Source: Flavobacteriia bacterium (GTDB lineage Bacteria; Bacteroidota; Bacteroidia; Flavobacteriales; Schleiferiaceae). From it: a stretch of DNA of 64,000 bases. How positions within the stretch are numbered: the stretch's first letter is position 1; each line of letters starts with the position of its first letter. Both the position numbers and the translations under genes were made by a program. Under the pieces are notes generated by a model, which saw only the letters and a program-made list of their open reading frames with translations, was not told where the DNA came from and made no database searches. Positions 10,016 to 49,336 of this stretch are shown in pieces. The stretch lies in assembly GCA_013373425.1 (NCBI GenBank), contig JABXHW010000017.1:1-64000 (forward strand). The letters are read 5' to 3'.

Positions 10016-10017
10016 TC

Positions 10018-12221: not shown

Positions 12222-12227
12222 GGAATG

Positions 12228-12235: not shown

Positions 12236-12241
12236 CCGCCT

Positions 12242-15342: not shown

Positions 15343-15345
15343 GAA

Positions 15346-16320: not shown

Positions 16321-16374
16321 CAAATTGAAAGGGCAAGGTTGTAAAAAGGAAGTATCTACTGGTACTAAAATTTC

Positions 16375-25439: not shown

Positions 25440-25502
25440 GAATTTGTCGCTTTGGCTGGAAAGTTCGGAACTTTGCAATGATAGCGAAAATCAACGCCGA
25501 TA

Positions 25503-27472: not shown

Positions 27473-27474
27473 TA

Positions 27475-28392: not shown

Positions 28393-28420
28393 TATTTTGA
28401 GAGTTATCATGATTATGTTG

Positions 28421-28428
28421 CTAAGATA
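28421..28428 (-). promoter_or_regulatory. -7-like element for the DUF6263-like gene
   Basis: TATCTTAG on the minus strand (7/8 match), 28 bp upstream of the chosen start. Confidence 0.4.
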
Positions 28429-28514
28429 AATCATCAAAACAATGATTCCTTCGTTATGTTGATTTCTTAGTTATCTTTAAAATCACACATCACAATACCT
28501 ATTAATTCTGAATC

Positions 28515-28985: not shown

Positions 28986-29022
28986 AGCCAGCTGTTTCCA
29001 CCGGAATAGCTGGCTTTTTTTT
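28986..29022 (+). terminator. Terminator of the DUF2147 gene
   Basis: Perfect 8-bp stem AGCCAGCT/AGCTGGCT with a 14-base loop followed by eight or more T residues. Confidence 0.9.
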
Positions 29023-31577: not shown

Positions 31578-32879
31578 CTATTTCGATATCGAATCCAAAT
31601 GCTCTACAATTTGTCCGGCTAAGACATCACGTCCATACTGGGTGTATTGGTTGGATTGAACGTGTAAAGTTTTGCTCAAATATTCAGGGAATACTCTTTC
31701 GAGATAATCACGCACCGGCTCCCACTGACCAAAACCAAAGACTTCTCCTGCTTGAGTTTCGTTGATGATTCGTGCTGAATCCCCTTCCTCCTTTCCAATG
31801 CAAAGAATCGGTCGCTGTGCACCAATGTATTCAAACAGCTTACCTGGCACTACCCCGTCGATATTCGGAGTATCGTTCAGTGGAAGATGTAAGAGCTGTG
31901 AAGATTGCAAATGGCCAATCACTTCCTTGTGAGGAACCCCTTTGATGTATTCAAGGTATTCGGTGAGATTGTGCTTCTCTAGAGAAACAAACACAGCGTG
32001 ATCTACCGGACCAATCAATTTAATCTTGAGATGCTTTTTCAGCTCATCATTCGTTTTCAACAGAGCCTCCAAGGCCTTCCACAAGCTATGCGGATTGCGA
32101 TCGGCATTCATCGATCCAATGTGCGTAATCGTAAACTCTGAATCCAGTACTCCGGAATTGTCGACAAAATCGGCAGGGTCGTAACCGTTGGTCACCACCT
32201 TTACCTCTTTGTTGAACTTCATTTTGTTGAAGTCTCTAGCCCAACTCCACGTAACTGTGACGGCTTCATCTGCTGAGTTGATTACGTTGCGTTCCAGCTT
32301 GTGATGTCGCCTATCCGCTGCTTTGCTCAACTTCAGCTTGTCATAGTAATCAACAAAAGTCCATGGGTCACGGAAGTCGGCTAGCCAAGGGACCTTCGTC
32401 TTGCGCTTTGCGTTCAGAGCTATGATATGTGTTGAATGTGGAGGGCCAGTAGATACGATTGCATCCACTTTGTTCTCCTTCAAATACTTGGTCAGAGCTT
32501 TCGAGGCGGGGCGAATCCAGAAGCGTTTGGCATCTGGAATAAAGATGTTACCACGAATCCAATAGGCTAAAGAGACCAGGGTTTTATTTCCCGAGCTCTC
32601 TTCGAGAAATCCAGGCTGCACCTTCTCATCTTTCTTCTTGCCTGTGAACTTTTTGTAGAGACCAAACGGCTCCCAAATCGGAACGCGTAAGGTTTCCACT
32701 CCTTCAGGGACTTCACTCAGTAAGCTCTCATCGTAGTTGGATATCTCATTATCCGAGACGGTAAAAATTATAGGCTCCCATCCGTAATCGCGCAAGTACT
32801 TACTCATCTTGAGCCAGCGCTGCACTCCTCCTCCACCCATCGGGGGCCAGTGGTAAGTAATGATTAATACCTTCTTCAT
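31578..32879 (-). CDS. GT4-family glycosyltransferase
   Basis: 433 residues, GT-B fold. The N-terminus reads MKKVLIITYHWPPMGGGGVQRW, with the glycine-rich acceptor loop of WbuB-like transferases, and the C-terminal half has ITHIGSMNADRNPHS and VPGKLFEYIGAQRPIL. Cytoplasmic or peripheral. It starts 4 bp inside the end of the heparinase-like gene (ATGA overlap), so the two are translated together. Likely adds a sugar during assembly of the local polysaccharide. Confidence 0.88.
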   Translation of the reverse strand: MKKVLIITYHWPPMGGGGVQRWLKMSKYLRDYGWEPIIFTVSDNEISNYDESLLSEVPEGVETLRVPIWEPFGLYKKFTGKKKDEKVQPGFLEESSGNKTLVSLAYWIRGNIFIPDAKRFWIRPASKALTKYLKENKVDAIVSTGPPHSTHIIALNAKRKTKVPWLADFRDPWTFVDYYDKLKLSKAADRRHHKLERNVINSADEAVTVTWSWARDFNKMKFNKEVKVVTNGYDPADFVDNSGVLDSEFTITHIGSMNADRNPHSLWKALEALLKTNDELKKHLKIKLIGPVDHAVFVSLEKHNLTEYLEYIKGVPHKEVIGHLQSSQLLHLPLNDTPNIDGVVPGKLFEYIGAQRPILCIGKEEGDSARIINETQAGEVFGFGQWEPVRDYLERVFPEYLSKTLHVQSNQYTQYGRDVLAGQIVEHLDSISK

Positions 32880-34678
32880 TCTACTTTCCGTCTTCCGTAT
32901 CCGACTGCTTTGAATTCTACCAATCCTTCGTTCACTTCGAAAGGTTTGTTTGAGGAATCGATAATTCGCACTCCATTTTCAGTGATATGAATATCTCGTA
33001 CTGCTTCGAAACCTCGATGCGAAAGTAAGGCGGTTATTTTGCCTTCGCCAATTTCAAGAAGCTCACATTTAGATTCTATCTTTTGGTGGAACAGACCGAG
33101 AAGTCCGGGTAGAAACGGATTGGGTTCAACGCCCCAATATGGACCATTATGCGCCTTTGCACTTCGCATGGCATTCCGAATTTCCATATCACCGGTGTAG
33201 GTATAGGTTCCAGGATCTAAAACCAAGTCCTTTCCATTCGCCCAGATTTCAACAGACAATTGGTCGTTGTGAAAATGCCCGCGGTATCTGTGTGCACCAT
33301 CTCTGGTCAAGAGCGACATGGCCAAGTAGAACGTATCGGATTTACAAACGACTATTCCCGTGATTGGGAAGTAGGTGTACTTTAGTTCGGTCGGGTTTAA
33401 TTCAACGTGGAGCACCCACTCGTGCTTGTTCGAATGCTTGAACGTTCTATGCTTATCAACATGAACATCCTTCTTCGGGGAAGCTACCTCCTTCAGTTCA
33501 AGTAGCGCAAGATTCTTTATAAAGATAGACTCGAGAGAATCTCCTTCACCAATCAGACCTTTATACATTTCAAAAACAGCGGCAGTCGACTTTCCATTCT
33601 GAATGTATTCTCCAGCTGTTGTCCACTCTCCGGAAGGCGAAAATGAAAAGATGGATCCGCTGTCGTTGTCGCCAAAGTCAGGCAACTCGCCATTTGGCTT
33701 CACAATTGTTCGCATGAAGGTCATTGCGGACTGAGTAATCTCACCCACTTCAGACTTACCGCGTTCATGCCCGAGCCGAGATAAAGCAGCGGTGCCTAGA
33801 ATGAGAAGCTCAGACCCGAGTTTGTGGTAGTACATCGAGCCTTCAAAATTGCCCCCGTCAGAATAAAACTGCTTCTTTGATTCACGTGTGAATTCATCCG
33901 TAATCCATTCCGACTTCTCATGCAACTCCTTCCAATCAGGGAAGTATATCAGCCCGAATAAGAGTCCGACCAAATTGGCCAAATAGTGATTATTCCCCAA
34001 GCCTTCCTTTCGTTCGAGATGATTGAAAACGAAATCGATATGTTGGCGAATAGCCGTTTCAATCTCTGTGGACACTGTTATTCCGCGGTGGCGAAAGATA
34101 TCCGTAATCACCATCCAATTCATCGCTCGGATAGCGACTTCCATAGCGTTCATCCAGTGTACACCCATTCCGATTGGATTGGACTTTAAAAAGTCTTCAA
34201 CCCAAAATTGAAATTCATCGGCAATTTGCTGATTGCCTGAATCCTTATGCTCTGTGATAGCCAACCATTGAGTGAAATGCTGAAACCTAGCCAGCTCCCA
34301 TGGTCGTTTTACATCTGCTTCTGGAACGGATAGGCCCAATCCTAACTGACTTGATGACGGAAGATCAATGTTCCAATCGAAAGAGGCGACAGGGTCGTGT
34401 TGCCATCGAATCCCGTGCTCTCCCTTCCATTCAAACCAACCAGAGCCCAGAACGTCTACTCTAGAAGCACTGAACTTTTCAATCAAATAGTCTTTTGTCT
34501 TTTGATCGACAGATATACTTGAGTTCGATGAAAGCATCGCCGCTAGGCTTCCTCCATTTTGTGGATTAAGGTGAACCTCAGTTTCTTTCTTACCCAGAAA
34601 GCGCTTCGCCATACGTGCAGCAAACACCTTTGGAGGTAGAGAAACAAGGTCGAGAAGAATTGAAAACTTGGAGGCCAC
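32876..34678 (-). CDS. Heparinase II/III-like protein, no signal peptide
   Basis: 600 residues. The N-terminal alpha-toroid includes GLGNNHYLANLVGLLFG and GGNFEGSMYYH; the C-terminal beta-sandwich carries the heparinase II/III signature around GHFHNDQLSVEIWANG and LVLDPGTYTYTGD. Secreted lyases of this family have signal peptides; this one starts MASKFSILLDLVSLPP and has none that I can see. Its position, overlapping a glycosyltransferase, suggests a role in building or editing the polysaccharide inside the cell rather than in degrading external glycans. Activity unproven. Confidence 0.82.
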   Translation of the reverse strand: MASKFSILLDLVSLPPKVFAARMAKRFLGKKETEVHLNPQNGGSLAAMLSSNSSISVDQKTKDYLIEKFSASRVDVLGSGWFEWKGEHGIRWQHDPVASFDWNIDLPSSSQLGLGLSVPEADVKRPWELARFQHFTQWLAITEHKDSGNQQIADEFQFWVEDFLKSNPIGMGVHWMNAMEVAIRAMNWMVITDIFRHRGITVSTEIETAIRQHIDFVFNHLERKEGLGNNHYLANLVGLLFGLIYFPDWKELHEKSEWITDEFTRESKKQFYSDGGNFEGSMYYHKLGSELLILGTAALSRLGHERGKSEVGEITQSAMTFMRTIVKPNGELPDFGDNDSGSIFSFSPSGEWTTAGEYIQNGKSTAAVFEMYKGLIGEGDSLESIFIKNLALLELKEVASPKKDVHVDKHRTFKHSNKHEWVLHVELNPTELKYTYFPITGIVVCKSDTFYLAMSLLTRDGAHRYRGHFHNDQLSVEIWANGKDLVLDPGTYTYTGDMEIRNAMRSAKAHNGPYWGVEPNPFLPGLLGLFHQKIESKCELLEIGEGKITALLSHRGFEAVRDIHITENGVRIIDSSNKPFEVNEGLVEFKAVGYGRRKVE

Positions 34679-34837
34679 GTGAGGTGAAACTTTGAAGCGA
34701 ATATACTTCTAGTGGAAGGAATTATTTGATGTTGAATGTGCACATGTGCCCTCGAATTGAGGATTTGATGTGAGAACGAAGAATTCTTGGGTCCATTGTA
34801 TAACAGCCATCGCCCGATAATTCTCATATTTGCCTTC

Positions 34838-35734
34838 ATGACGTCAGGGGTTGTTTTCATCACAGGAGTTGGACGCTCAGGTACTACTGTACTTCAGAGC
34901 ATGCTGCATTCGCATTCCGCTTTCCACTTCTCTCCTGAGACACACTTTTTTAAGAGATACATTCTCCCCTTTCAGCTCAAAAAGAAGACTCCGTCTGTTC
35001 AAGACCTTTCGCAGGACACCTACTTGAATCGACTATCTGAATCACAGAGAGAGTCGCTCTTTAAAATGAAAATGGACTCCATCGATGAGCTGAAAAGTGC
35101 ATTTCAAGCTATCATGAGCGGAGGAGAAAGCGCTTCGTTTTCGGGAGATAAAGACACGGAGTATGTTCGGTACTTCCCTCATCTAAAACGTCTATTTCCT
35201 GACGCATACATGATTCATATCGTGCGCGATCCAAGAGATGTAGTGGCAAGTCGACTCAAAACGGAATGGGGAGCAAAGCGGAGTCTTGAATTTCACATCG
35301 CCGAGTATCAATACTATCTGAAGAAAGTACGTGCTGAGGGTCCGGCTCTTTTCGGCGATCGATTTATCGAGCTGAAATATGAAGATCTTCTGGAAGCGCC
35401 TGAAGAACAGCTATCCTCCATCCTTTCCAAATTCGGAGAAACCTTCGAACCTCAAATGCTCGAATTCTACAAGAATGACAGCGGGCTTGTGGCTGAGGAT
35501 GAAAAGAAGTGGAAAGGAAATGTTTCGAAGCCTCTTCAGCAGAAGAACAGTGGAAAATGGAAGGCCTCATTTTCACCGAAGGAAGCTGCACTAATTCAGA
35601 AAGGCATCAAGTCGTTTTTCCAAGAAATGAACTATGAGTTAGTCGATGTGAAGCCATCACCAGCAAAGAGACTCAAAGTACGTGTACTCAAAAAACTCTT
35701 TGCAGGTAAAACGCTCAAAGAACAATTGAAATAA
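34838..35734 (+). CDS. Sulfotransferase (first of four)
   Basis: 298 residues. PAPS 5'-phosphosulfate loop GVGRSGTT at residues 10-17 and 3'-phosphate motif IVRDPRDVVASRLK. The start at 34838 puts the loop at the usual distance from the N-terminus; an earlier ATG at 34787 is unlikely. No signal peptide or membrane span, so a cytoplasmic enzyme moving sulfate from PAPS to a small acceptor or glycan. Its stop overlaps the start of the next gene by one base. Confidence 0.88.
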   Translation: MTSGVVFITGVGRSGTTVLQSMLHSHSAFHFSPETHFFKRYILPFQLKKKTPSVQDLSQDTYLNRLSESQRESLFKMKMDSIDELKSAFQAIMSGGESASFSGDKDTEYVRYFPHLKRLFPDAYMIHIVRDPRDVVASRLKTEWGAKRSLEFHIAEYQYYLKKVRAEGPALFGDRFIELKYEDLLEAPEEQLSSILSKFGETFEPQMLEFYKNDSGLVAEDEKKWKGNVSKPLQQKNSGKWKASFSPKEAALIQKGIKSFFQEMNYELVDVKPSPAKRLKVRVLKKLFAGKTLKEQLK

Positions 35735-36804
35735 TGGCCGAGGCTAAACTCATATTCACCACCGATTACGAGATCTTCGGCAATGGATCAGGCAGCGTAG
35801 AGCATTGCATGATCAAGCCCACAGAAGACATGGCGCGTCTGCTGGAAAAGCACGGGGCACGCATGACCGTGTTCTTCGATATTTGCGAATACTGGGCCTT
35901 CAAAGCCGAGTTTGAAAAGGGCACTCTTTCAGAAAACTGGGCGCAACTCATCGAAAGTCAGCTTCAGGACTTGGTGCAAAGAGGTCATGATGTGCAACTT
36001 CACTTTCATCCGCAATGGCTCGATTATGAATTCGATGGGCAAGACTGGAAGTTGAACTTCGACTTGTGGAGAATCGGTGTATTGAAATACGAAGATGAAA
36101 CATATCCGGAACGAGGATTGGATCAACTCTTCAAGCGAGGGAAGGAAACACTGGAGACACTTCTTCAGCCGGTAAAATCCGATTATCGTTGTCATATTTT
36201 CCGTGCAGGCGCATGGAGCATGCAGCCAGAAACAGATGTCCTCAGAGCAATGCGCGAAAATGGGTTTGACATTGACTCCACAGTGGTTCCGGGATTAAAG
36301 TTTGAAGACAACTTCACCAAATACGATTTCACTGCTGCGCCAAAAGACCGACCGCATTGGACGATCCAATCCAATCTGTGTCAACCTGAGCTAGATGGCA
36401 CCATTACTGAGATACCCATCTTCAGCGCCCCAACTCCCTTGGTGACCAACGCCGCGTTCTTATGGATGAAAAGCAATCGTAAAATCGCCTTCAAACCGGA
36501 TGGGTGCTCAGGAACGGCCATTGCAACAGAAGGGAAAGGAAAGTGGCGTAAAATCCTTGAGACCATTACTACATCTCGGAAGATGTTCACCTTCGGGGAT
36601 GCCACTCCTGCTGAAGAAATGAAGTACATGGTGGGAAGAGCCCTTCGCGAGGTGCATCGCATGAATGTGAACTTACCCGTTGTGGCTATTAGTCACCCGA
36701 AGACATTCGCCAACACCGAGGAATTCGACGTTTTCCTAGCCTGGTGTGTCGGTCAGAAAAATGTGGAGTTCAGTACTTACGACAATTACCTCAAGGGCGA
36801 ATAA
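35734..36804 (+). CDS. NodB-like polysaccharide deacetylase family protein
   Basis: 356 residues. The N-terminal IFTTDYEIFG corresponds to the catalytic aspartate motif, and HDVQLHFHPQW supplies the two metal-binding histidines. Between them is the strand LEKHGARMTVFFDI typical of the family. No signal peptide. It probably removes N- or O-acetyl groups from a sugar precursor or growing polymer. It overlaps the sulfotransferase by one base (TAATG) and its end overlaps the convergent GT2 gene by 14 bp. Confidence 0.85.
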   Translation: MAEAKLIFTTDYEIFGNGSGSVEHCMIKPTEDMARLLEKHGARMTVFFDICEYWAFKAEFEKGTLSENWAQLIESQLQDLVQRGHDVQLHFHPQWLDYEFDGQDWKLNFDLWRIGVLKYEDETYPERGLDQLFKRGKETLETLLQPVKSDYRCHIFRAGAWSMQPETDVLRAMRENGFDIDSTVVPGLKFEDNFTKYDFTAAPKDRPHWTIQSNLCQPELDGTITEIPIFSAPTPLVTNAAFLWMKSNRKIAFKPDGCSGTAIATEGKGKWRKILETITTSRKMFTFGDATPAEEMKYMVGRALREVHRMNVNLPVVAISHPKTFANTEEFDVFLAWCVGQKNVEFSTYDNYLKGE

Positions 36805-37654
36805 GCCTTCCTGTAAGCGATTTAACCTCTGAGATAGACACTTTCCTTCCGCTTCCTATTCGTGTAAACCAATAGCGGCAAACCTTGCTGAAACGCTGAA
36901 GGATATTCAGGCTAGGCTGCTTGAGTTGATAGTATATCGCTTTTGCTCCATGATACTTCTCCGCTTTGCGCGTCCAGTTATGGAGGGACAAAAACGTTTG
37001 ATATGCCTCTAATTTACTAGCATTGAAGTCGGACACTCTCCCCTCTTGATGCACATTGAACAAAGCCAGTGGTTGGTCCACCGACCGCATTAAGACATCC
37101 GCCGGTTCTGTCAGTTTCAACCATAGATCCCAATCTTGAAAGGCCTTCAAACTCTCAGAAATTCTCAAATCCGTTCGACGAATCATGACAAAGGAATAGC
37201 TCCCAGGTACATTTTCATATTGAAGATCGGAGTTGAGAATATGAGTAGGTCGACTTCTCCGCGACTTTCCATTTGAGGAAACGGCATAAGAATCACATGA
37301 AACCAGCACAGTTCTTGGGTACTCTTGGAACTCACTGAGTTGGAGCTCTAACTTCCTTGGCAACCACTCATCATCATCGTCTAGAAAGGCGAAGAACTCT
37401 CCTTTCGCGGCGTCCATCGCGATATTCCTTGCAGCTGCCCCTCCTCTTCTATCGCCATTGTTGGCAATCACCACAATTCGAGGATCATTAAAAGTTTGCA
37501 GTACCTCGAAAGTAGATTCCTCGCAATGATCTGGAACCACAATCAACTCCCAATTGGAAAAAGTCTGCTTCTGAACAGATTCAATCGCCGTCTTTAATCG
37601 TTCTGGACGATTATGGGTAGGAATGATAACGCTGACCTTGGGGGAGTTTCCCAT
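36791..37654 (-). CDS. GT2-family glycosyltransferase
   Basis: 287 residues. Classic GT-A start VSVIIPTHNRPERLKTAIESV with the metal-binding DDDDEW and the GGAAARNIAMDAAKGEFFAFLDDDD stretch split around it. Cytoplasmic. Last gene of a three-gene minus-strand set (sulfotransferase, asnB, GT2), 67 bp after asnB. Confidence 0.93.
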   Translation of the reverse strand: MGNSPKVSVIIPTHNRPERLKTAIESVQKQTFSNWELIVVPDHCEESTFEVLQTFNDPRIVVIANNGDRRGGAAARNIAMDAAKGEFFAFLDDDDEWLPRKLELQLSEFQEYPRTVLVSCDSYAVSSNGKSRRSRPTHILNSDLQYENVPGSYSFVMIRRTDLRISESLKAFQDWDLWLKLTEPADVLMRSVDQPLALFNVHQEGRVSDFNASKLEAYQTFLSLHNWTRKAEKYHGAKAIYYQLKQPSLNILQRFSKVCRYWFTRIGSGRKVSISEVKSLTGRLIRP

Positions 37655-37721
37655 TCAATTGTGCTTTGTCCTGTTCAGTGCATTTGAATCAGCAAGGTAC
37701 ATTTCTTCGAGAAAGATGATT

Positions 37722-39512
37722 TTACCAAATTTCCTCAGGTGAGTCTCCTTCGATGAACAAACGCCACCAGATCTCAAAAATGAGCGTCTGCCAGTACAAA
37801 TTGTATTCGTGCATCGACATCTTTCTCTTTTGAAGTAAGGTCGACAAGCGCGCTGAGTCTATGTACCCAGCCATTTGAAGTCGACTATTCCTCAAGAGTT
37901 TGTCGAAATACTCATCCCTGAACGTATCGATGAAGTACCAAATCGGGAAGCCAAACCCTTCCTTCTTTCGAGTGAAATAATCCTCTGAAATGACATCTTT
38001 CGTGGCTTCATACAAAAGAGGCTTCTTCATTTCTGAAGACAACTTAAACTCGGAAGGAGTTTGTAGCGAAAGCTCCACTAGCGTATGATCCAAAAGTGGA
38101 ACGCGGCACTCAATCGAAGCGGCCATGGACATCTTATCTGTCAAGAAAAGGATATCATCTTGAAGGTACCACTGGACATCAGAGCGCATCATGGCATTGG
38201 GGAAGTCGCTGTGCTTTTGTGCTTTAAACAGTGCATCCACTTCCTTTTGCTGAGGCTTGGATTGATAGTGCGGGAAGGTCGATTTAAACTCTTTGAAATA
38301 CCGTCTTCTGTATTTGTCGTAGTAGCTGTAATACAATCCAATTCCATTCACGGCCTTACTTACCAAAGACTTAACGGGACTGTAATTTCTGTGATGTCGG
38401 TAGCCTGCAAATAGCTCGTCACCACCCGCTCCACTTAAAATCACAGTGTCCTCTTTCTTCGAAATTTCTGAAAGCAAATACGTTGGAATTAGCGCACCAT
38501 CGCCGATGGGCTCTTCCATGTGATAGATAAGCTTTGGCAGCATGCCTATCACATCGATGCTGGTCACTTCTCGAACTTGCAGGTTGAGATTGTATCGATT
38601 CGCCAATTCCTTGGCAAACTCGTACTCATCCATCTTCCCCTGGATATCGTTCCAACGAATATGGTAGGCATTGAAAGGTTCTCTTCGTGATCCAGCTAGA
38701 GCACAAATAGCTGAACTATCGGCACCTCCACTTAAAAATGCACCAACTGGAACATCGGAAAGCAATCGATAGTCGATGCTTCGATCTAGACGTTTTCTGT
38801 ATTCTTGAACGAACTCTTCCTTCGACCAGTCCAACGGCTCTGTAGAGGGGTTCCAATAGGATGTTTCCTCCACACCAGATTCTGAATAGGTTAAGTAGTG
38901 CCCGGAACGGACCATCTTGATATTCTTGAAGATGGTCGTCGGACGTGGAATCCAATTTAAATCGAGATAGGAACTCATTCCCACATGGTCGATTTCTCGA
39001 CTCACCTTTCCGGTATTCAGAATGGACTTGAGTTCTGAAGCGAAGAAAATATCACCAGCAGACATTGCATAGTACAGCGGTTTAATTCCCATTCGATCTC
39101 GACCAAGCACTAATTTTCCGCGCTTCTTGTCGATGATGGCAATCGCAAACATGCCATTGATCTTGCTGAAGCAATCGCTGCCATACACCTCGTAAAGCGC
39201 TGGAAGCATCTCTACGTCATTGGTCGTCTTAAACGTATAACCGTGCTTTTCACTCAGCTCCTTCTTGAGCTCCTTGAAATTGTATAGCTCTCCGTTGCAA
39301 ATTGCGATGATGGAGCCATCTTCATTGGAGAAAGGCTGATTACCATTCGCAAGGTCGAGAATGCTCAGTCTCCGCATACCGATGGCATACGTCTCATCGG
39401 TGTAAACCCCTGCCCCATCTGGGCCACGGTGAATTTGCTGCGACTCCATTGCGGAGAGCACACTATCGGGAAATTTATTCTGAAATTGGGTGTAGCCGTA
39501 AATTCCGCACAT
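37722..39512 (-). CDS. asnB: Asparagine synthase-type amidotransferase
   Basis: 596 residues. Begins MCGIYGY, so Cys2 is available as the N-terminal glutaminase nucleophile, with IHRGPDGAG and NGELYNF for glutamine binding. The synthetase half has the PP-loop FLSGGADSSAICAL and the downstream ILSGAGGDELFAGYRHH. Within a glycan cluster such proteins usually amidate sugar carboxylates rather than make free asparagine; either is possible here. It lies 3 bp after a sulfotransferase gene in an operon. Confidence 0.93.
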   Translation of the reverse strand: MCGIYGYTQFQNKFPDSVLSAMESQQIHRGPDGAGVYTDETYAIGMRRLSILDLANGNQPFSNEDGSIIAICNGELYNFKELKKELSEKHGYTFKTTNDVEMLPALYEVYGSDCFSKINGMFAIAIIDKKRGKLVLGRDRMGIKPLYYAMSAGDIFFASELKSILNTGKVSREIDHVGMSSYLDLNWIPRPTTIFKNIKMVRSGHYLTYSESGVEETSYWNPSTEPLDWSKEEFVQEYRKRLDRSIDYRLLSDVPVGAFLSGGADSSAICALAGSRREPFNAYHIRWNDIQGKMDEYEFAKELANRYNLNLQVREVTSIDVIGMLPKLIYHMEEPIGDGALIPTYLLSEISKKEDTVILSGAGGDELFAGYRHHRNYSPVKSLVSKAVNGIGLYYSYYDKYRRRYFKEFKSTFPHYQSKPQQKEVDALFKAQKHSDFPNAMMRSDVQWYLQDDILFLTDKMSMAASIECRVPLLDHTLVELSLQTPSEFKLSSEMKKPLLYEATKDVISEDYFTRKKEGFGFPIWYFIDTFRDEYFDKLLRNSRLQMAGYIDSARLSTLLQKRKMSMHEYNLYWQTLIFEIWWRLFIEGDSPEEIW

Positions 39513-39515
39513 AGA

Positions 39516-40388
39516 TCACCAAGGAGTTTCTCGATTCAAAAATGATGAAAGTTCCTCGTTGAAGGGGGCATAGAAGGCATTTAATTTCTCTCGGGTGGCA
39601 TCGCTAATTGGACTCTTATACTTGCCTTGATTGAAGTTCGTGCGAATCATTCCTTCTGGCATCTCCTTCTCAAGTCCACAATAAGTGGCAATGCCTTTCC
39701 AAGTCTCTTCTGGCCTATCTCTCAGCTCTTCCAGGAATACAGCGTGAAAAGGAATATCGAGTTCCTTCAATCGCTTCAGATAGGTCACATAAATCCCTTT
39801 TGAAATGCACATTCCGAAGGGAGAGTAAAAAGTAGTGTGATCGTAAATCGACTTCGTATCCGTCAAATCGACGTTCTTCAAGAGGTCAAGCTCATACTCC
39901 ACGTAATCATCAAAACTCAACTCTTGATCGATATACCCTTGATCTTCGACATCATACGCGAAGTGCGAGTACGCTCTATTGACCGGGTTTCGCATGATAA
40001 CAAGCACCTTCGGTTGGTTCAAGTGCTTCTTCACTCGCTCCAGTGCGCCAGGTACAAAAATGGCTTGATGGCTGGCATTAACCGTTTTATATCCCTTGTA
40101 CTTCAATGGGAAGTTGAGGAGATATTCAGCGTAGGAGTACTTGTCTTGTGCAAAGGTGTTCTTCTCCTTGGTCTTTCCTGGAACGTATTCTTCGGTGGAG
40201 GTGATGTACTTATAAAGCGATGTAGTTCCACACTTTTGAAACCCCACAATCAATATGCTTGGGGAAGTAAATAAGCTTTTTGCGATTTCCTCTGCCACGC
40301 GGGTTCGCTGCAACCTCTTCATGAGGCGCTTATACGAACTTACGCGCCTCTCTCTCTCAATAAAATGCGATTCAACCGATGACTTCAA
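39516..40388 (-). CDS. Sulfotransferase (second of four)
   Basis: 290 residues. PAPS loop GFQKCGTT at residues 49-56, 3'-phosphate motif IMRNPVNRAYSHFAYD. The N-terminal 45 residues are basic and helical. Resembles the classic carbohydrate sulfotransferase group more than the first copy does. First gene of the minus-strand operon with asnB and GT2. Confidence 0.9.
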   Translation of the reverse strand: MKSSVESHFIERERRVSSYKRLMKRLQRTRVAEEIAKSLFTSPSILIVGFQKCGTTSLYKYITSTEEYVPGKTKEKNTFAQDKYSYAEYLLNFPLKYKGYKTVNASHQAIFVPGALERVKKHLNQPKVLVIMRNPVNRAYSHFAYDVEDQGYIDQELSFDDYVEYELDLLKNVDLTDTKSIYDHTTFYSPFGMCISKGIYVTYLKRLKELDIPFHAVFLEELRDRPEETWKGIATYCGLEKEMPEGMIRTNFNQGKYKSPISDATREKLNAFYAPFNEELSSFLNRETPW

Positions 40389-40416
40389 CTCAACGAGAAA
40401 TTAAAATTTACGCTAA

Positions 40417-40424
40417 CAAATATA
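40417..40424 (-). promoter_or_regulatory. -7 promoter element of the sulfotransferase-asnB-GT2 operon
   Basis: TATATTTG on the minus strand, full match to TAnnTTTG, 28 bp upstream of the start at 40388. Confidence 0.55.
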
Positions 40425-40528
40425 CATTTGAGTTTCACACGAGAAACAGCGTAAAACTCGCTTATTTCCTCGACTTATCCCTACAAAGGTGCTAAGTTAG
40501 TAAGCTCGAACGCGTTTGAAAAAGAGCC

Positions 40529-41599
40529 ATGCCTGAGAAGGAACCTATCGATCTGATTATCAACACTCCCCACATCGGAAATAGCGGAGGCGTTGCTAAC
40601 TTCTATCGGAACCTCGCACCTCACTTTGGTGCAAATATTCTGTTGAATGAAGTGACCTATCCCAACGATCAGAAGCCCTCTCCCCTGCAGCAAATCGGAC
40701 TATTCTTCAAGTTTATTGGTTTGCTTCGAAAGCACAAGAGCGCCAAAGTGCTACTCAACCCATCATTCAACTTTAAGTCGGCCAGAAGAGACAACATCTA
40801 CATCCGACTCGCCAAAATGTACAATCGCGAGGTTCACATCTTTTGGCACGGTTGGGATAAGCAGTTTTATGAGGCTTTGAATTCAAAAAATGGCAAAGGA
40901 TTCACAGAAGTGTACAGCTATCCATCCACACAGTTTGTGCTAGCTTCTGAATTCAAAGATCAACTCGCAAACTTGGGTGTTACCAGCAAGGTAGAATTGG
41001 CTACTACCTGTGTCGATAATTCCCTCATTGAAGGAGCACAAGCGTTGGGAGGGATTCAACCAAAGACACAAATCAAAAAACTCCTCTTCATCTCGAGAAT
41101 TGAGAAGGTGAAAGGAATCTTTGAAACCGTTCAGGCCTTTGCGCAACTGCAGCAAAAGCACCCCAACATCGAATTAAACATTGCCGGAACAGGTGGGGCA
41201 TTTGAGGAGCTGCAAGCCTACATCAAAAGCGAAAAAATCCAGAACATAAACCTATTGGGCTATGTGAGGAATGAGGAGAAACTCAGGTGTTATCTAGAAA
41301 ATGACGCCTTGGTTTTCCCAACCTATCACGGCGAAGGGATGCCGCTCACTTTGCTCGAGAGTTTGAGTTTTGGGCTGGTGATTATCACCACAGACATTGG
41401 TGGTATCAAAGACTTCTTCAACGATAAAATGGGAGCCTTGGTCAAACCACAATCTGTGGATTCAGTGGTTAAAGCGCTGACTCCTTTGATGGAGAATCCC
41501 GAGTCGGTAGAGCAAATCTCTAAGTTCAACTTCCACTATGCCATTGAGAAGTATCAGGCAAAAGATGTAGCAAACCGCTTAGTTGAGCGAATCCTATAA
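40529..41599 (+). CDS. GT4-family glycosyltransferase
   Basis: 356 residues, GT-B. The N-terminus has IINTPHIGNSGGVANFYRNL and the donor site is marked by LLFISRIEKVKGIFETVQAF and the E-x7-E type segment PTYHGEGMPLTLLESLSFGL. Cytoplasmic. A single plus-strand gene between two minus-strand operons; it converges on a sulfotransferase with 5 bp between stops. Confidence 0.92.
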   Translation: MPEKEPIDLIINTPHIGNSGGVANFYRNLAPHFGANILLNEVTYPNDQKPSPLQQIGLFFKFIGLLRKHKSAKVLLNPSFNFKSARRDNIYIRLAKMYNREVHIFWHGWDKQFYEALNSKNGKGFTEVYSYPSTQFVLASEFKDQLANLGVTSKVELATTCVDNSLIEGAQALGGIQPKTQIKKLLFISRIEKVKGIFETVQAFAQLQQKHPNIELNIAGTGGAFEELQAYIKSEKIQNINLLGYVRNEEKLRCYLENDALVFPTYHGEGMPLTLLESLSFGLVIITTDIGGIKDFFNDKMGALVKPQSVDSVVKALTPLMENPESVEQISKFNFHYAIEKYQAKDVANRLVERIL

Positions 41600-41604
41600 G
41601 CTTC

Positions 41605-42483
41605 TTATGCCCATCGGTCATCTATGCCGAAGGCTTTCAGCACGCGCTTGGCAAAGTCTATTTCTCCATCAGAAACGGAATCCTTCCAACTCGTTTTCGA
41701 TGTCAAATCTCCCGCTTTCTTCGATGTCATTTTTGAAGGTCGATTGAGAACATCTTCCAAGTCATCGGCATCAAACTCCAACCTATAAAAGTCGAATATC
41801 GACTGATAGCCTTCCCGAGGCTTAGCCTTCAAATCTTCATAATACACCCAAAGTACTCTGTCTGATTTCATGCTCTGCTCGGCCACCATCGACTCAACGG
41901 CCCAGGATACAAAGTGCTGTTCAAACGGAGTTGAAGCTGAGGCTATCAAATCCAAATGCGGCTTGAGATAATCTTCAACAAGATCGGGCTGGCCGGTAAG
42001 CAAGTGCAAGTTGGGAGGCCACCCCTTCGTGACGCGGCTGAGAGCAACCTGATATGGGTTCCTCACCACATAAACGACCTTCAGAGAGGGAAACTGCTCG
42101 AGCATCCAATGAAGTATCATGCTCACTCGAATGAACTTCACCAATCGCCTTTCTGGTCTCCGATTCCTATTGAACTGATCAATCCATCGGTGACGAACAT
42201 CTCCACTCAGAACCTTCTCCAAATAGTCGCGGAGGTCTTTTCTCTCATCACTTTCACGCAAGTAAAGTCGGGCTTCGAAAGGAATACCTAACACTTTCTT
42301 CTCGTTCAGTGGCTCAAATAGATATCGAAAGGAATTATCCTTATTCAACACTTCCGTCATCCAAGTGGTGCCGCTTCTGCCCTGACCAGCTAGTACGTAG
42401 ACATTCTCCATTCCTCCCTTATCTTCAATCGGCAGGGAGGTATAGAAATAAGACTTGAGTTTGTTGATTTGATACTTCAACAT
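41605..42483 (-). CDS. Sulfotransferase (third of four)
   Basis: 292 residues. PAPS loop GQGRSGTT at residues 33-40, followed by WMTEVLN, and 3'-phosphate motif VVRNPYQVALSRV. A tyrosine-rich segment VLWVYYEDLKAKP matches the family. It is the last gene of an operon with yfhO-like and flippase genes (36 bp after the flippase). Confidence 0.9.
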   Translation of the reverse strand: MLKYQINKLKSYFYTSLPIEDKGGMENVYVLAGQGRSGTTWMTEVLNKDNSFRYLFEPLNEKKVLGIPFEARLYLRESDERKDLRDYLEKVLSGDVRHRWIDQFNRNRRPERRLVKFIRVSMILHWMLEQFPSLKVVYVVRNPYQVALSRVTKGWPPNLHLLTGQPDLVEDYLKPHLDLIASASTPFEQHFVSWAVESMVAEQSMKSDRVLWVYYEDLKAKPREGYQSIFDFYRLEFDADDLEDVLNRPSKMTSKKAGDLTSKTSWKDSVSDGEIDFAKRVLKAFGIDDRWA

Positions 42484-42519
42484 ATCTGTGCAACTAGCAG
42501 CTCGGTTTAAAGGACAAAT

Positions 42520-44013
42520 CTACTTACGTTTCAAGTACCGATTCTTCAAAGCCTTGAATAATTGAGTGAAATCTTCCGATACTTTAAATCGCAGTACCAG
42601 CAATCCAAAGAAGCCGATGGTAATGCTAGATCGGTAGAGGATATCGAGGAAAGGGGAGTCCAGTTTAGGTAGATATTCAGCCACAAAATAGGTCAAGATG
42701 GCGATGATCAATGCGATGCCAGAACTCGACTTGAACGGTTGGTAGTTGAGACGATACCTAACATAAATAGACTTCAAAATATTGATAGACCCCAGAGCCA
42801 CCAGAGTTGCAATACCGGCTCCATTCAGGCCATATTTAGGAATCAAGATAAAATTGAGTCCGATGGCCAAGACTCCCAGGGCCGTGAGTGTGTAGAAATT
42901 GAAGCGATAATACGGTGAGTTCTGAAGAATGTTGGAGTTTACGCCCATCGACATGTCGAATAGCTTAGCTAACCCGATAAAGAGCACCACGTACTTACCA
43001 GTGATATACTCATCTCCCCTTGGCATCAATTCAAACAGCGCATCCAAGTTTGTCCACACGCAGATTAACATCACCGCGCCAACGAGGAACTGATTAAGAG
43101 ATGATTTGTGATATAGCGATTGAACCATATCTCGATCGTCAGAAGCCATAGCTTCGGCTATGAACGGACCTGTAATTTGGGAAACCGCTCTTCGCGGAAG
43201 CTCAATCATCTGGCCGATGAAGAAGGCGATAGAATAAACACCTGCGAAAGAAAGCCCTTTAAAGCTCATCAGCATTACTGAATCGATATTTTTAATCAGT
43301 ACGTCGCTTGTAGCCGCAAGGATTTGGAACAATCCGAAGATGACCATATCCCTTCCGAGCCCACCTTTCAACTTGGACAGCTGAGGCTTGAAATTAAGCG
43401 CCCGCATCCGGAACAAATAGAAGGTCATGATAGCTCCAGAGATGTAATAAATGATGACAAAAAGAATCATCATTCCATCCAAATCGAACCAACTTGCTGC
43501 AAATCCAACTACCAACACCATCGTTAGAACGCGAACCAGAATCTCCTTGATGACAAGCGGGAAAACGTTCTTCTTCAACGTACGGGCATAGCTCTGTCCG
43601 ACGATATAAATTACGCGTGCGAGAACCAGCGGAATCAGCAAGTAGACGTAGGTTGCAAACAATGGAGCTCTGCTCGCGTAATACTCCGTAATCTGATCTT
43701 GAAAGATGAGATAGAGTAACGCAAATAGCAAAAAGCCAAGCAAGGATAGCACTGCCCCAATGAAAAGTAGCCCTTTCGGTTTAGACTCGCCTTCGGCTTT
43801 GAAGTGAGGTAGATAGCGAATGAAAATACTCTGGCTCCCGAGCGGGATGAAAGCCGCAAAAATATTGGCTGCATCCAGGATTACAGAGAGGAGTCCGACC
43901 TCCGCTGTGGTCAGATATTTCGTAAAGAGATACAGCTTTAAAACAAAGCCAAGGGCTACCCCGATAATTAGTACCAGAGTAGCCTGAATGCTTTGTCTAC
44001 GTATCGTTCCCAA
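42520..44013 (-). CDS. Polysaccharide flippase (Wzx/MATE-like)
   Basis: 497 residues with about 14 hydrophobic spans, beginning ATLVLIIGVALGFVLKLYLFTKYL. The opening residues and repeated charged cytoplasmic loops match the polysaccharide-transporter (PST) branch of the MOP superfamily, which moves lipid-linked oligosaccharides across the inner membrane. No polymerase (Wzy) is next to it. It follows the YfhO-like gene by 20 bp. Confidence 0.88.
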   Translation of the reverse strand: MGTIRRQSIQATLVLIIGVALGFVLKLYLFTKYLTTAEVGLLSVILDAANIFAAFIPLGSQSIFIRYLPHFKAEGESKPKGLLFIGAVLSLLGFLLFALLYLIFQDQITEYYASRAPLFATYVYLLIPLVLARVIYIVGQSYARTLKKNVFPLVIKEILVRVLTMVLVVGFAASWFDLDGMMILFVIIYYISGAIMTFYLFRMRALNFKPQLSKLKGGLGRDMVIFGLFQILAATSDVLIKNIDSVMLMSFKGLSFAGVYSIAFFIGQMIELPRRAVSQITGPFIAEAMASDDRDMVQSLYHKSSLNQFLVGAVMLICVWTNLDALFELMPRGDEYITGKYVVLFIGLAKLFDMSMGVNSNILQNSPYYRFNFYTLTALGVLAIGLNFILIPKYGLNGAGIATLVALGSINILKSIYVRYRLNYQPFKSSSGIALIIAILTYFVAEYLPKLDSPFLDILYRSSITIGFFGLLVLRFKVSEDFTQLFKALKNRYLKRK

Positions 44014-44033
44014 GTTATTTGTCTAATTAACGC

Positions 44034-46559
44034 TTACTCTTCGGCGTCTGCTACATTCTCCTCTGAGGAAGGCTTGCGCAAGCGGATAAACACGATTACC
44101 CCAAACACTCCTAGTAGGAGAATCGATCCGATGAGTGAGATTGTGGTACCCGCGTAGTACGACTCCGGCTTGAACACAAACTTAACTTCATGCGCACCTG
44201 CTGGTATATTCATCCCTCGTAGAACGTAGTTTACACGGATATGGTCTACTGGCTCACCATCAATATAAGCCTGCCAATCACCTTCCTCTCCGCGGTAATA
44301 CACCTCAGAGAATACAGCAAACTGATCGCTATTTGCGTTGGTGTTGTAAACCATCTCTTTCGGGTCGTACTGACTCAGGTTGATGGTTCCTTCACCAGAG
44401 AATGTAGTTGCGGTCGGTACGTCTCCGAACTGCTTGTGAACAAGAACTGTATTGGCCGTATTTATTTGACTTAATCCTTCGAGTACCTCACGGGCCGTCT
44501 CTTTCACTTGTACATCCTTGATGAACCAAGCAGCGCCATTTGCGAATGAATTGCTAATTGCTGGAGCACCTGGGTTATAAATCACATACTTGCCATTCAG
44601 CATGTTGAGCACTGGCGTATTCTGGAAAGCCATGTCCATGCCCTGCCCCTGTGTTTGCTGAAGGGTTCGGCCTATCGTCTGAGCTTCATTGGCTAGCACG
44701 TTCTCGAAGAGCTCAAGGTAGCGCTGCAACTTCGCACCGTGATACCCACCAATCGAATGGTGGTAATAGGATGTCATCGCATCATTGAACGGATTGTTCA
44801 AATTGAACACTCGGTAATAGCTCTGATCCTGAAGAATGGAACGGTCGGCAACGGTTGCTTCGAAAGAAGCTTCATACTGACGATCACTCACGAAGTCATC
44901 TGCGTTCACAAACTGGGTATCTACAGTCCATAGGTCAACAATAACCAACGCCGACATCACCAAGAGCGCGCGAGTTTTGTTGAGTGTGTTGCGAACGTAG
45001 AGGAGCAAAGCTCCGAACACTAGTCCGGCAAAAATAAACGAGCGGAAGGCGCTACTTCTTGCCAGCGATGCTCTGTCATCTTTCAACATATCCAGCAATT
45101 CTGGATTTTGAGCCAACTGCTCTTGTGGTGCGTCGAAGGATAGGAACCTAGGGCCGAAAAGGGCAATGGCTAGGAACAATCCCCCAACAATGTAAAAGGC
45201 CTTCTTCAGACTTTTCAGGATGAAATCACTTTCCTTCTCTTTATTCTTAACGATGTAATCCGCCGCGAAGACGCCCATTAATGGCATCAACAAGAAGACA
45301 ATTACAAAGGTCATCGACGGAACGCGGAACTTGTTGTAGAGCGGCAGGTAGTCGAACAGCAAGTTGTTGAACCAAGCCATGTTTTTACCGAGCGCCATGA
45401 AAATTGCCAGAACGACCGATACAATGATCCAGGTCCTGCGTTTGTCTTTAATCAAGATGCATCCAAGGACAAACAAGAAGAATATAGATGCTCCTAGGTA
45501 GTATCCACCCCAGACCAAACCTTGCTCTCCCCAGTAGAATAAGCTTGCGATCGATGCATTTGCCTGCGCTTCTGCAACAGATGCACTGGCCCCTTGTTGA
45601 AGGTAGTATTGCTTTTGCTGTGGGAAGAGTTGATCGTGGATTTCGGTGCCTTCATAGGTTTGTTTCGAACCACCACCCATGATATTTGGAACGATGAGGT
45701 TGAAGGATTCCGTAATCCCATAACTCCAACGCATCGCATAATCTTTATCCAGACCTTCATTGTTTTCACCCGACTCAGCTTTGAGTCCGGATCCACCACC
45801 ACGAATCGTTTCTTGTTGATATTCGTAGACGGTCCACAGGCGCGAAACATTTGGCGCCACGGCCAACATCGCTGCAATGAGAAGAACACCTACAGATTTC
45901 ATGTAGCCGTTAAGTCGGCCTTCCTTGATGGCGCGAATCAACTCGACGATAGAAATCACCGCCGCTACGATAACACCGTAATATGTAATCTGAATGTGGT
46001 TGGCCATAATCCCCATCCCTGCGAAAAGTGATGTAAAGGCCAAGCCCAATAAATACTTTCCTCGATAGGTCAGAAGAATACCCATCAGCATCGGTGCTAG
46101 ATAGCCCGCTGCGCGAATCTTGGCATTGTGCCCGGCACCATAGGATATTATGAAGAAGGCCGAGAATCCAAAGGCTATCGCGCCTATCGCATTCACCCAA
46201 GGGTCCACTTTATAGACGGAACCCAACATATAAAATCCAATCATCAAGAAGGATATCAATCCAATTTGTGACGGCAGAGCAAGCTTCGATAGCTTCTCAA
46301 GGTAGCTCAATAAATTGCCCTCATGCTTGATGTTCATCAGGAATTGTGGCATACCACTGAACATGCTGTTCGTCCACAATGGCTCTTCGCCATTTGCTTC
46401 GCGGTAATCCACGATTTCTTTACTTTTGGCGACACCCAATTTGATATCGTCTTGCTCGATGGTTTTACCACTGAAAGCAGGATAAAAGTAAATGGACGTT
46501 GCAATGATCATGGAGAAGATGGCAACGATATGCGGGATAAACTTCTTGGGGATATTCAT
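44034..46559 (-). CDS. YfhO-family multispanning membrane protein
   Basis: 841 residues with more than ten membrane spans in the first two thirds (starting IVAIFSMIIATSIYFYPAFSG) and a soluble C-terminal domain before a last span (TTISLIGSILLLGVFGVIVFI). The first periplasmic loop carries acidic residues (EQDDIKLG), as in GT-C folds; YfhO proteins act in sugar decoration of cell-envelope polymers in Gram-positives, and their role in Bacteroidota is not settled. It heads an operon with the flippase and a sulfotransferase, which supports a glycan role. Confidence 0.88.
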   Translation of the reverse strand: MNIPKKFIPHIVAIFSMIIATSIYFYPAFSGKTIEQDDIKLGVAKSKEIVDYREANGEEPLWTNSMFSGMPQFLMNIKHEGNLLSYLEKLSKLALPSQIGLISFLMIGFYMLGSVYKVDPWVNAIGAIAFGFSAFFIISYGAGHNAKIRAAGYLAPMLMGILLTYRGKYLLGLAFTSLFAGMGIMANHIQITYYGVIVAAVISIVELIRAIKEGRLNGYMKSVGVLLIAAMLAVAPNVSRLWTVYEYQQETIRGGGSGLKAESGENNEGLDKDYAMRWSYGITESFNLIVPNIMGGGSKQTYEGTEIHDQLFPQQKQYYLQQGASASVAEAQANASIASLFYWGEQGLVWGGYYLGASIFFLFVLGCILIKDKRRTWIIVSVVLAIFMALGKNMAWFNNLLFDYLPLYNKFRVPSMTFVIVFLLMPLMGVFAADYIVKNKEKESDFILKSLKKAFYIVGGLFLAIALFGPRFLSFDAPQEQLAQNPELLDMLKDDRASLARSSAFRSFIFAGLVFGALLLYVRNTLNKTRALLVMSALVIVDLWTVDTQFVNADDFVSDRQYEASFEATVADRSILQDQSYYRVFNLNNPFNDAMTSYYHHSIGGYHGAKLQRYLELFENVLANEAQTIGRTLQQTQGQGMDMAFQNTPVLNMLNGKYVIYNPGAPAISNSFANGAAWFIKDVQVKETAREVLEGLSQINTANTVLVHKQFGDVPTATTFSGEGTINLSQYDPKEMVYNTNANSDQFAVFSEVYYRGEEGDWQAYIDGEPVDHIRVNYVLRGMNIPAGAHEVKFVFKPESYYAGTTISLIGSILLLGVFGVIVFIRLRKPSSEENVADAEE

Positions 46560-46634
46560 AAAGATTCGCGATTCTAGGAATAAGCGCTAAAATAAGATTC
46601 CTGACTATCTAACACAGACAAGTAGTCGATTTAT

Positions 46635-47510
46635 ATGACCAAAGTTCAATCGAAACGTTTTCCCAATGCTGTAATTATCGGCGCGCCCAAGTCGGGCACT
46701 AGTTCGCTGTTCTTTTGGCTTAGCGCTCATCCAGATGTCTGCGGTTCGAAGACCAAGGAAACCTACTTCCTAGCGGACGGTGTGAGCAAGTTCAACCGTG
46801 GATTGAACTTTATCGAGAATGGTTTGGACGCTTATACTAGGCACTTTGAGCATTGCCAGGGGGAGGCCATTCGACTCGAGGCTACAGCTCCCTACATCTA
46901 CATGAACAATCCGTTCACGGTACTTCCGAGTTTAGAAACTCAACCGAAAATCATTGTCATTCTGCGCAAACCATCCGAACGACTGTACTCGCATTACAAG
47001 TTCAATCGCTATCGGATGAAGAATATCGACATGAGCTTTGAGGAATATCTGAACCCTGATAATATCCCCGAAGGCTGGCAAGATTATCTCGAACAAACCG
47101 ATTATCCATTGTGGATTGAGAAATGGCAAAAAGCCGTTGGAAAAGACCGACTTCTCGTCTATCAAATGGAGGAAATGTACCGAGACAAGGTGCAGTTCAT
47201 GATGAAGGTAGCGAGTGATTTGGGCATCAATCCTGAATTCTACGACGGATTCGACTTCTTCCACAGAAACAAAACTGTAGCCGTGAAGAGTAAGAAACTT
47301 CATCGACTCGGATTGAAATTTGAACCGCTCGTTCCGCAGTGGCTTCAGGAGAAAATCATTCCGCTCTACTTGAAAATGAACTCCTCTAAGGTTCCACCTA
47401 TTACGGCTCGAGAAAAGGAACTGAAAGAACAAATTACCCGAGATTACTCCGAGTCTATACACAAATTAAAAGCGCTCGTTCCTACAATTGACCCAACGCT
47501 CTGGGAATAA
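46635..47510 (+). CDS. Sulfotransferase (fourth of four)
   Basis: 291 residues. PAPS loop GAPKSGTS at residues 16-23 followed by SLFFWLSAHPDV, and 3'-phosphate motif ILRKPSERLYSHYKF. This arrangement is typical of heparan/chondroitin-type carbohydrate sulfotransferases. It is divergent from the YfhO-like gene (75-bp gap) and followed after 28 bp by the LamG/T9SS-B gene. Confidence 0.92.
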   Translation: MTKVQSKRFPNAVIIGAPKSGTSSLFFWLSAHPDVCGSKTKETYFLADGVSKFNRGLNFIENGLDAYTRHFEHCQGEAIRLEATAPYIYMNNPFTVLPSLETQPKIIVILRKPSERLYSHYKFNRYRMKNIDMSFEEYLNPDNIPEGWQDYLEQTDYPLWIEKWQKAVGKDRLLVYQMEEMYRDKVQFMMKVASDLGINPEFYDGFDFFHRNKTVAVKSKKLHRLGLKFEPLVPQWLQEKIIPLYLKMNSSKVPPITAREKELKEQITRDYSESIHKLKALVPTIDPTLWE

Positions 47511-49098: not shown

Positions 49099-49336
49099 AT
49101 TTCTCTTCTTCTATCTCTTCGAACTCCACCACTTCGCCAACATCATCCCGAACGGCGCTTTTAGTTTGCCTTGGGTCGTAGCGAACAATGATTTCTTGTT
49201 CCCTGTTCTTTGAAGCGCCCCTTCTACTTCCTTGAGAAGATGAACCTCTACGTTGGGAAAAGAGACGGTCTAGCGTTCGAAAGACGAACCAGGCTAGGAC
49301 CAGGAAGAAAATCGTTCTGAAGAGTCCTGCCACCAT
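49097..49336 (-). CDS. DUF4834 small membrane protein
   Basis: 79 residues: one N-terminal span (LFRTIFFLVLAWFVFRTL), a basic serine-rich linker and an acidic tail (EEIEEEK). This matches DUF4834, found in Flavobacteriia. It starts on the last base of the carB stop, so it is translationally coupled with carB. Function unknown. Confidence 0.85.
   Translation of the reverse strand: MVAGLFRTIFFLVLAWFVFRTLDRLFSQRRGSSSQGSRRGASKNREQEIIVRYDPRQTKSAVRDDVGEVVEFEEIEEEK

Follow-up and report, generated by a model that had tools for sequence, protein, structure and literature searches.

A candidate exchangeable sulfated-glycan cassette with four sulfotransferase genes at a fixed chromosomal locus of Phaeocystidibacter

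Four intact genes for PAPS-type sulfotransferases (ST1 to ST4) lie within 12.7 kb in a genome of the marine Bacteroidota genus Phaeocystidibacter, which raises the question of what such a locus makes and whether the four enzymes belong together. The window analyzed here is a stretch of 64,000 nucleotides (contig JABXHW010000017.1, positions 1 to 64,000), whose relevant features are listed in Table 1. An earlier note had read the region as a cluster for a polysaccharide sulfated at several positions by four mutually dissimilar sulfotransferases, with one enzyme for each position as a possibility. The PAPS loops and matching 3'-phosphate motifs on which it relied, the latter taken straight from the translations, were confirmed: all four genes are full-length ORFs with zero internal stops, and each product has both PAPS motifs and passes the Pfam threshold for Sulfotransfer_1 or Sulfotransfer_3 (PF00685/PF13469; E 9e-34 to 2e-10), as is expected of PAPS-dependent sulfotransferases. 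The mutual dissimilarity applies only between two pairs. No similarity was detected by pairwise comparison between ST1/ST3 and ST2/ST4, but ST2 resembles ST4 (28% over 133 aa, E 8e-10) and ST1 resembles ST3 (23% over 294 columns, E 2e-6). ST2 and ST4 fall into a heparan-sulfate-type branch, while ST1 and ST3 form a second, loose group. The profile of ST4 matches heparan sulfate N- and 3-O-sulfotransferases (E 3e-18 to 1e-15), and both ST4 and ST2 align with NDST, 3-OST and 3RNL across the PAPS-binding half; identity is low, however, and the two are bacterial proteins of ~290 aa that lack the deacetylase domain and have a glycan as candidate acceptor. ST1 resembles CurM and tyrosylprotein sulfotransferases, its nearest solved relatives, and the best solved relatives of ST3 are cytosolic SULT1 enzymes. 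Because these relatives act on polyketides, tyrosine or small molecules, not every sulfotransferase need target the local glycan.

Table 1. Features of the locus and its flanks (positions in the window).
Feature	Position	Strand	Remarks
Fixed left flank: rlmH, nadC, yihY, (27475-28437), DUF2147 gene	24966-28964		Order identical in Phaeocystidibacter, Owenweeksia and other genera
LamG + CHU_C surface protein (CHU_C, type IX secretion signal)	29021-31525	-	Not in the exchanged segment; 47-48% within the genus
GT4 glycosyltransferase	31578-32879	-	67-70% to O. hongkongensis and G018; 33% to P. luteus
Heparinase II/III-like protein	32876-34678	-	Candidate motifs NNHYL, YYHKLG, HFHND conserved in three genera
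ST1 sulfotransferase (Sulfotransfer_3)	34787-35734	+	PAPS loop GVGRSGTT; 3'-phosphate motif RDPRDVVAS
NodB-like deacetylase candidate	35734-36804	+	Start overlaps ST1 stop
GT2 glycosyltransferase	36791-37654	-	Pfam
AsnB-like glutamine amidotransferase	37722-39512	-	Pfam; candidate for uronic acid amidation
ST2 sulfotransferase	39516-40388	-	PAPS loop GFQKCGTT; 3'-phosphate motif RNPVNRAYS
GT4 glycosyltransferase	40529-41599	+	Pfam
ST3 sulfotransferase	41605-42483	-	PAPS loop GQGRSGTT; 3'-phosphate motif RNPYQVALS
PST-type flippase (Wzx)	42520-44013	-	PF01943, 38.7 bits (cut-off 28.2)
YfhO-like GT-C membrane protein	44034-46559	-	Q36/D38 invariant, first loop region; predicted OST-like fold
ST4 sulfotransferase	46635-47510	+	PAPS loop GAPKSGTS; 3'-phosphate motif RKPSERLYS
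LamG + CHU_C surface protein	47539-49065	+	Probably part of the exchanged segment, as its closest relative is in O. hongkongensis
Fixed right flank: carB	49336-52185	-	94-95% within the genus

Pfam also bore out most of the proposed neighbors, namely two GT4 and one GT2 transferases, the amidotransferase, the flippase and the heparinase II/III-like protein, whose gene shares a 4 bp overlap with the first GT4 gene. The proposed deacetylase is a weaker assignment: the window protein has no significant Pfam match, and its ortholog in Owenweeksia hongkongensis matches Polysacc_deac_1 only at E 0.0026. In addition, the fold could not be read from a single-sequence structure model (pLDDT 32), and a sequence search of solved structures returned implausible matches only.

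The segment from ~31.55 to 49.2 kb is best read as an exchangeable cassette whose place in the chromosome is the same throughout the family. Locus order is conserved in many genera, with the variable region bounded by rlmH-nadC-yihY-DUF2147 on one side and carB on the other; known RNA elements or tRNAs that could mark an insertion site were not found. The cassette is nearest to those of O. hongkongensis and the family genome G018 (60-65% identity for the YfhO-like protein, 67-70% for GT4). Within its own genus the corresponding values are 42% and 33%, yet carB is 94-95% identical. The trees, built by quick searches under a simple model, are incongruent in the same sense: carB groups Phaeocystidibacter with a support of 97, whereas a genus clade is rejected for the YfhO-like protein (AU p=3e-16). 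A recent arrival of foreign DNA, as judged by base composition, was rejected; since the G+C content of the cassette equals that of its flanks, the exchange would be old or have occurred between similar genomes.

Sulfotransferases are encoded in 87 of the 88 family genomes. The four in the window are nevertheless not conserved as a set, for each is distributed independently among relatives, an outcome that the earlier note had itself named as refuting the set. ST4 is the only widespread one, no close relative of ST2 was found in the 88 family genomes, and ST3 is nearly private to the window genome. ST1 travels with the deacetylase-like gene, as the pair recurs in the family genome G005 and both genes lie near each other in G018. 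This independence refutes the set but does not count against sulfation itself, as the cassettes found at this position in relatives bring along different sulfotransferases of their own: three in P. luteus and two in a third congener (G001), mostly different from those of the window, and three in O. hongkongensis. Every Phaeocystidibacter cassette at the carB spot has at least two among its glycan genes. Of the original reading, the glycan cluster and the integrity of its sulfotransferases stand, and their status as one functional set falls; the cassette probably makes a surface glycan that carries sulfate at several places.

The earlier note had proposed looking for PAPS synthesis elsewhere in the genome, and cysD, cysN and cysC are indeed present there, contiguous at a locus (C61) that adjoins a sulfate/anion symporter-like gene. 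A sulfite reductase domain was not found in this 96% complete genome, although 11 of the 14 controls have one; sulfation is therefore probably the main use of the PAPS. Another seven or eight sulfotransferases are encoded outside the cassette.

The most conserved gene of the region is the one for the YfhO-like protein, which is oriented divergently from ST4. It is present in 80 of the 88 family genomes (55 of the 56 good ones) and lies on the carB contig, at most 21 kb away, in 53 of them. ST4 does not always accompany it: in one genus (g6) the YfhO-like gene stays beside carB and ST4 is on a different contig; in G018, ST4 is likewise absent beside it. The resemblance to YfhO that had been noticed falls just under the threshold of the Pfam model (PF09586; 26.7 bits, gathering cut-off 28.5). 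Across 18 proteins the consensus is QDD, with Q36 and D38 invariant, and many transmembrane helices, an acidic DXD/DDX-type outer-loop motif and the predicted fold place the protein in the GT-C superfamily. Its model aligns with yeast STT3 (Z 21.2, 425 residues, 4.5 A) and also with PglB (Z 18.4), PMT (16.8), ArnT (14.8) and the AftD fold, and the protein thus models as an oligosaccharyltransferase-like GT-C enzyme with putative catalysis. By sequence, a profile search of solved structures gave zero oligosaccharyltransferases (STT3/PglB/AglB) among its matches, so that the likeness to them is one of fold, at ~9% identity.

Taken together, these features are somewhat more in favor of than against an exchangeable sulfated-glycan locus whose product is transferred in the periplasm by the YfhO-like protein. 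The sulfate on the glycan, the order of steps and the acceptor are deduced here from gene families. Glycosyltransferases would assemble an oligosaccharide on undecaprenyl phosphate, and the sulfotransferases would sulfate it in the cytoplasm with PAPS supplied by cysDNC from outside the locus, with further sugars modified by the amidotransferase and the deacetylase-like protein. After the flippase has turned the glycan to the periplasm, the YfhO-like protein, as the constant part of the locus, would move it, or a lipid-linked sugar thereof, to an acceptor that might be a protein or a lipid/LPS core, in which case no Wzy would be needed in the locus. Species would swap in different cassettes with different sulfotransferases, and the sulfation pattern would consequently vary like a serotype.

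A possible though less probable alternative is that the locus is a conventional capsule or EPS cluster of the Wzx/Wzy type, which borrows its polymerase and exporter from other clusters, and that the YfhO-like protein adds a side sugar only. Here, the model would be B. subtilis YfhO, without which lipoteichoic acid lacks GlcNAc and for which a C55-P sugar was proposed as donor (PMC5836110); the matches to AftD, PMT and ArnT are compatible with such a role. Wzz/Wzc-like, EpsG-like and Wzy_C proteins are encoded at C61 and C21, next to further sulfotransferases; the earlier note had suggested looking for wzy elsewhere in the genome. However, these two clusters seem complete in themselves, with flippase and polymerase-type genes of their own, and the cassette itself has the flippase with no Wzy, Wzz or Wza among its ORFs (ORF list and Pfam), in line with the earlier observation that the window lacks Wzy and Wza/Wzc.

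Rather unlikely is a second alternative, by which the locus would correspond, in this family, to the outer-glycan locus (LFG) of Bacteroidota protein O-glycosylation. The product here would be a sulfated glycan linked to protein, and the YfhO-like protein would serve as the ligase or oligosaccharyltransferase. The LFG locus (PMC12871550) shares a fixed flank, one Wzx flippase, a conserved glycosyltransferase and species-specific middle genes; its ligase and OTase are undiscovered, and the predicted fold of the YfhO-like protein would fit. Against this, LFG loci are recognized by a flank of metG and wzx and by a terminal pair of conserved glycosyltransferases, while the flanks here are nadC/yihY/DUF2147 and carB, and the LFG review reports no sulfotransferases or sulfate and does not mention a YfhO-like protein. 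The excess of D-[ST]-hydrophobic motifs is alike in secreted and cytoplasmic proteins (ratios of 1.44 vs 1.45, in a small set from part of the genome) and thus does not discriminate. It is doubtful that a Bacteroidota glycoprotein pathway has its still undiscovered ligase or oligosaccharyltransferase in the YfhO-like protein, which in this marine family would hang a species-specific, multiply sulfated, cassette-encoded glycan on surface proteins.

Sulfated polysaccharides were termed exclusive to cyanobacteria among bacteria as recently as in a 2021 report (PMC8205485), and later structures came from marine gammaproteobacteria, namely the capsular polysaccharides of Vibrio sp. KMM 8419 (PMC11641403) and Cobetia marina KMM 1449 (PMC11766843), with sulfate established by NMR. 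Like the Phaeocystidibacter locus, these are variable glycan loci of marine bacteria that combine sulfotransferases, three in the Vibrio region, with glycosyltransferases. They differ in being ABC-transporter capsules with PAPS genes in-cluster, whereas the present locus has a Wzx-type flippase, PAPS genes elsewhere, a constant YfhO-like protein and a family-wide fixed position, and its sulfate is predicted from genes alone. The synechan xss cluster of Synechocystis likewise joins sulfotransferases of distinct subfamilies, glycosyltransferases and Wzx, but is plasmid-borne with two sulfotransferases and a complete Wzx/Wzy/PCP set, the accessible part of its description making no mention of a YfhO-like protein (PMC8205485). 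A putative sulfated GAG-like cluster of Pontiella sulfatireligans, from another phylum and also predicted from genes, has GT2/GT4 genes, a yfhO gene and a single sulfotransferase together (PMC7356697). A literature search found no paper joining sulfotransferases and Cryomorphaceae. If the favored reading of a periplasmically transferred, exchangeable sulfated glycan is true, sulfation would vary as a surface trait, much as serotypes do, across a family that carries sulfotransferases almost throughout, with relevance to phage receptors, cell recognition and the cycling of marine sulfated glycans. The constant GT-C partner would then stand as a specific candidate for the transfer of glycans in the periplasm.

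That the sulfotransferases are mostly hitch-hikers in a variable locus, acting on lipids, proteins or small molecules, is improbable: the solved relatives of ST1 and ST3 and the nearly private ST2 and ST3 would suit it, but the grouping of ST4 and ST2 with glycan-sulfating enzymes and the recurrence of sulfotransferases amid the glycan genes of all Phaeocystidibacter cassettes argue against it. Their number in the window is high but not unique, since among 93 sulfotransferase-bearing loci, mostly retrieved via ST4 similarity and with some places counted twice, only two further loci have four within 13 kb and 11 have three.

The four sulfotransferases (STs) of the window are real and intact and lie where the earlier note had placed them, as established by translation of the open reading frames and Pfam matches (see table), and sequence comparison detects distant kinship within two pairs, ST2-ST4 and ST1-ST3. 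The remaining genes of the cassette, the variable glycan-gene segment holding the STs, match the inventory of that note, except that the YfhO match falls below the Pfam cut-off and the deacetylase is weakly supported. ST1 and the deacetylase-like gene are also paired in Owenweeksia hongkongensis (59% each), and G018, a further relative, has the two genes as well. ST2 and ST3 are almost without relatives across the genomes of the family.

Features in the window and at related loci
Feature	Position	Strand	Pfam match	Nearest among solved structures
LamG + CHU_C protein, GT4 side	29021-31525			
GT4	31578-32879	-		
Heparinase II/III-like protein	32876-34678			
ST1	34787-35734	+	Sulfotransfer_3, E 8.7e-34	CurM and tyrosylprotein sulfotransferases
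Deacetylase-like	35734-36804	+		
ST2	39516-40388	-	Sulfotransfer_1, E 1.9e-10	3RNL and heparan sulfate sulfotransferases
ST3	41605-42483	-	Sulfotransfer_1, E 2.6e-16	cytosolic SULT1
YfhO-like	44034-46559	-		
ST4	46635-47510	+	Sulfotransfer_1, E 7.2e-12	3RNL and heparan sulfate sulfotransferases
LamG + CHU_C protein, carB side	47539-49065			
carB	49336-52185	-		
Own genome, L044 (contig C54), 854-aa ORF	8715-11279		Sulfotransfer_3, piecewise	
Own genome, L039 (contig C61), glycan cluster	75-95 kb			
AG-913-I23, L133, multi-ST cluster	9099-16341			

Comparison of some twenty family genomes revealed a constant frame for this locus, with rlmH, nadC, yihY and DUF2147 on one side and carB on the other, enclosing a YfhO-like gene, usually with a divergent ST4, plus flippase and GT4 genes and others that vary. 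Of 88 family genomes, 80 carry the YfhO-like gene (55 of the 56 good ones), which, by our own count from ST4 and YfhO-like searches of the family, lies at most 2 kb from ST4 in 25 genomes; in genus g6 and part of g11, the two are found on different contigs. Within Phaeocystidibacter, three different cassettes occupy this one spot, carrying four STs in the window, three in P. luteus and two in G001. The latter two cassettes include an ST4 ortholog (38-40% to that of the window), and their other STs are not orthologous to ST1-ST3. In the carB tree the window joins G001 and P. luteus at support 97, with 94-95% identity. In the tree of the YfhO-like protein, as in that of GT4, it is placed with O. 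hongkongensis and G018; for the YfhO-like protein, a topology constrained to a single clade for the genus is worse by 399 log-likelihood units (AU p=3e-16). Within the genus, identity drops from 94% for carB to 42% for the YfhO-like protein, which is 65% identical to that of O. hongkongensis. The exchanged stretch covers at least GT4 through ST4 and probably the LamG protein on the carB side, the one on the GT4 side being outside it; base composition carries no mark of the exchanged segment. Similar type IX secretion cargo is found at the same locus in O. hongkongensis, P. luteus, G020 and G011, and the two LamG + CHU_C proteins flanking the cassette could serve as lectins or as glycan carriers. 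The heparinase II/III-like protein, encoded with GT4 in three genera, retains candidate catalytic motifs, has no obvious signal peptide and might be a cytoplasmic lyase or uronyl epimerase.

A model of the YfhO-like protein built from 18 homologs (pLDDT 77, pTM 0.79) most resembles the catalytic subunits of oligosaccharyltransferases (yeast STT3, Z 21.2 over 425 residues at 4.5 A; PglB, 18.4), followed by AftD, PMT and ArnT. These enzymes act on the membrane face turned to the outside or the lumen, where they use polyprenyl-phosphate- or -pyrophosphate-linked sugars. The likeness is one of predicted fold, as a sequence-only search gave no link to oligosaccharyltransferase-type enzymes. The consensus QDD near residue 37, with Q36 and D38 invariant in the alignment, is compatible with the modified DXD motif known from GT-C enzymes. 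Since PAPS is cytoplasmic, sulfation would take place in the cytoplasm, ahead of flipping, and the flipped oligosaccharide would then be transferred en bloc by the YfhO-like protein, which is the simplest reading because the locus has a flippase and no Wzy. The main rival is that this protein adds a side chain to a polymer. In Bacillus subtilis, YfhO is needed for lipoteichoic acid glycosylation (PMC5836110).

Sulfated capsules of established structure are specified by ST-bearing clusters in Vibrio and Cobetia (PMC11641403, PMC11766843), synechan is described as a cyanobacterial sulfated polysaccharide with an ST-bearing cluster (PMC8205485), and a putative GAG-like cluster of Pontiella holds stf and yfhO (PMC7356697); an ST-bearing glycan cluster is therefore of a known kind. 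New here are the family-wide fixed locus, the swapping of its ST sets and a GT-C partner that stays constant. The plan is similar to that of LFG, the outer-glycan locus of Bacteroidota O-glycosylation, but LFG has other flanks and sulfate is not reported for it (PMC12871550); membership is not claimed.

Parts that the earlier note found lacking in the window do exist in the genome, in separate clusters: cysN, cysD and cysC are contiguous, followed by a Na/sulfate-symporter-like gene, and polymerase-type genes occur on contigs C61 (Wzz/Wzc-like protein, flippase, EpsG-like polymerase, two STs) and C21 (flippase, one ST, Wzy_C protein). No sulfite/nitrite reductase domain scored above the cut-off in this 96% complete genome, whereas such a domain is present in 11 of the 14 control genomes; together with the presence of cysN-cysD-cysC, this suggests that PAPS is probably made chiefly for sulfation, although the missing 4% could hold a reductase gene. 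Seven or eight further STs are distributed over C21, C29, C54 and C61. The C61 cluster, a second glycan cluster of this genome, also encodes NusG-like and two AsnB-like proteins, and the long ORF on C54, with the ST-like PAPS loop GWPRSGTS, is predicted to be a large fused sulfotransferase. APS kinase occurs in some member of 18 of the 19 genera of the family; most of the small g6 genomes (e.g. G057, G025, G041, G046, G113) have 2-7 sulfotransferase matches without it, and in many of them PF01507 is represented only by a shorter, CysH-sized protein. Another multi-ST cluster, in the single-cell Bacteroidetes AG-913-I23, presents a flippase followed by three back-to-back ST4-like genes and a fourth 4 kb further on.
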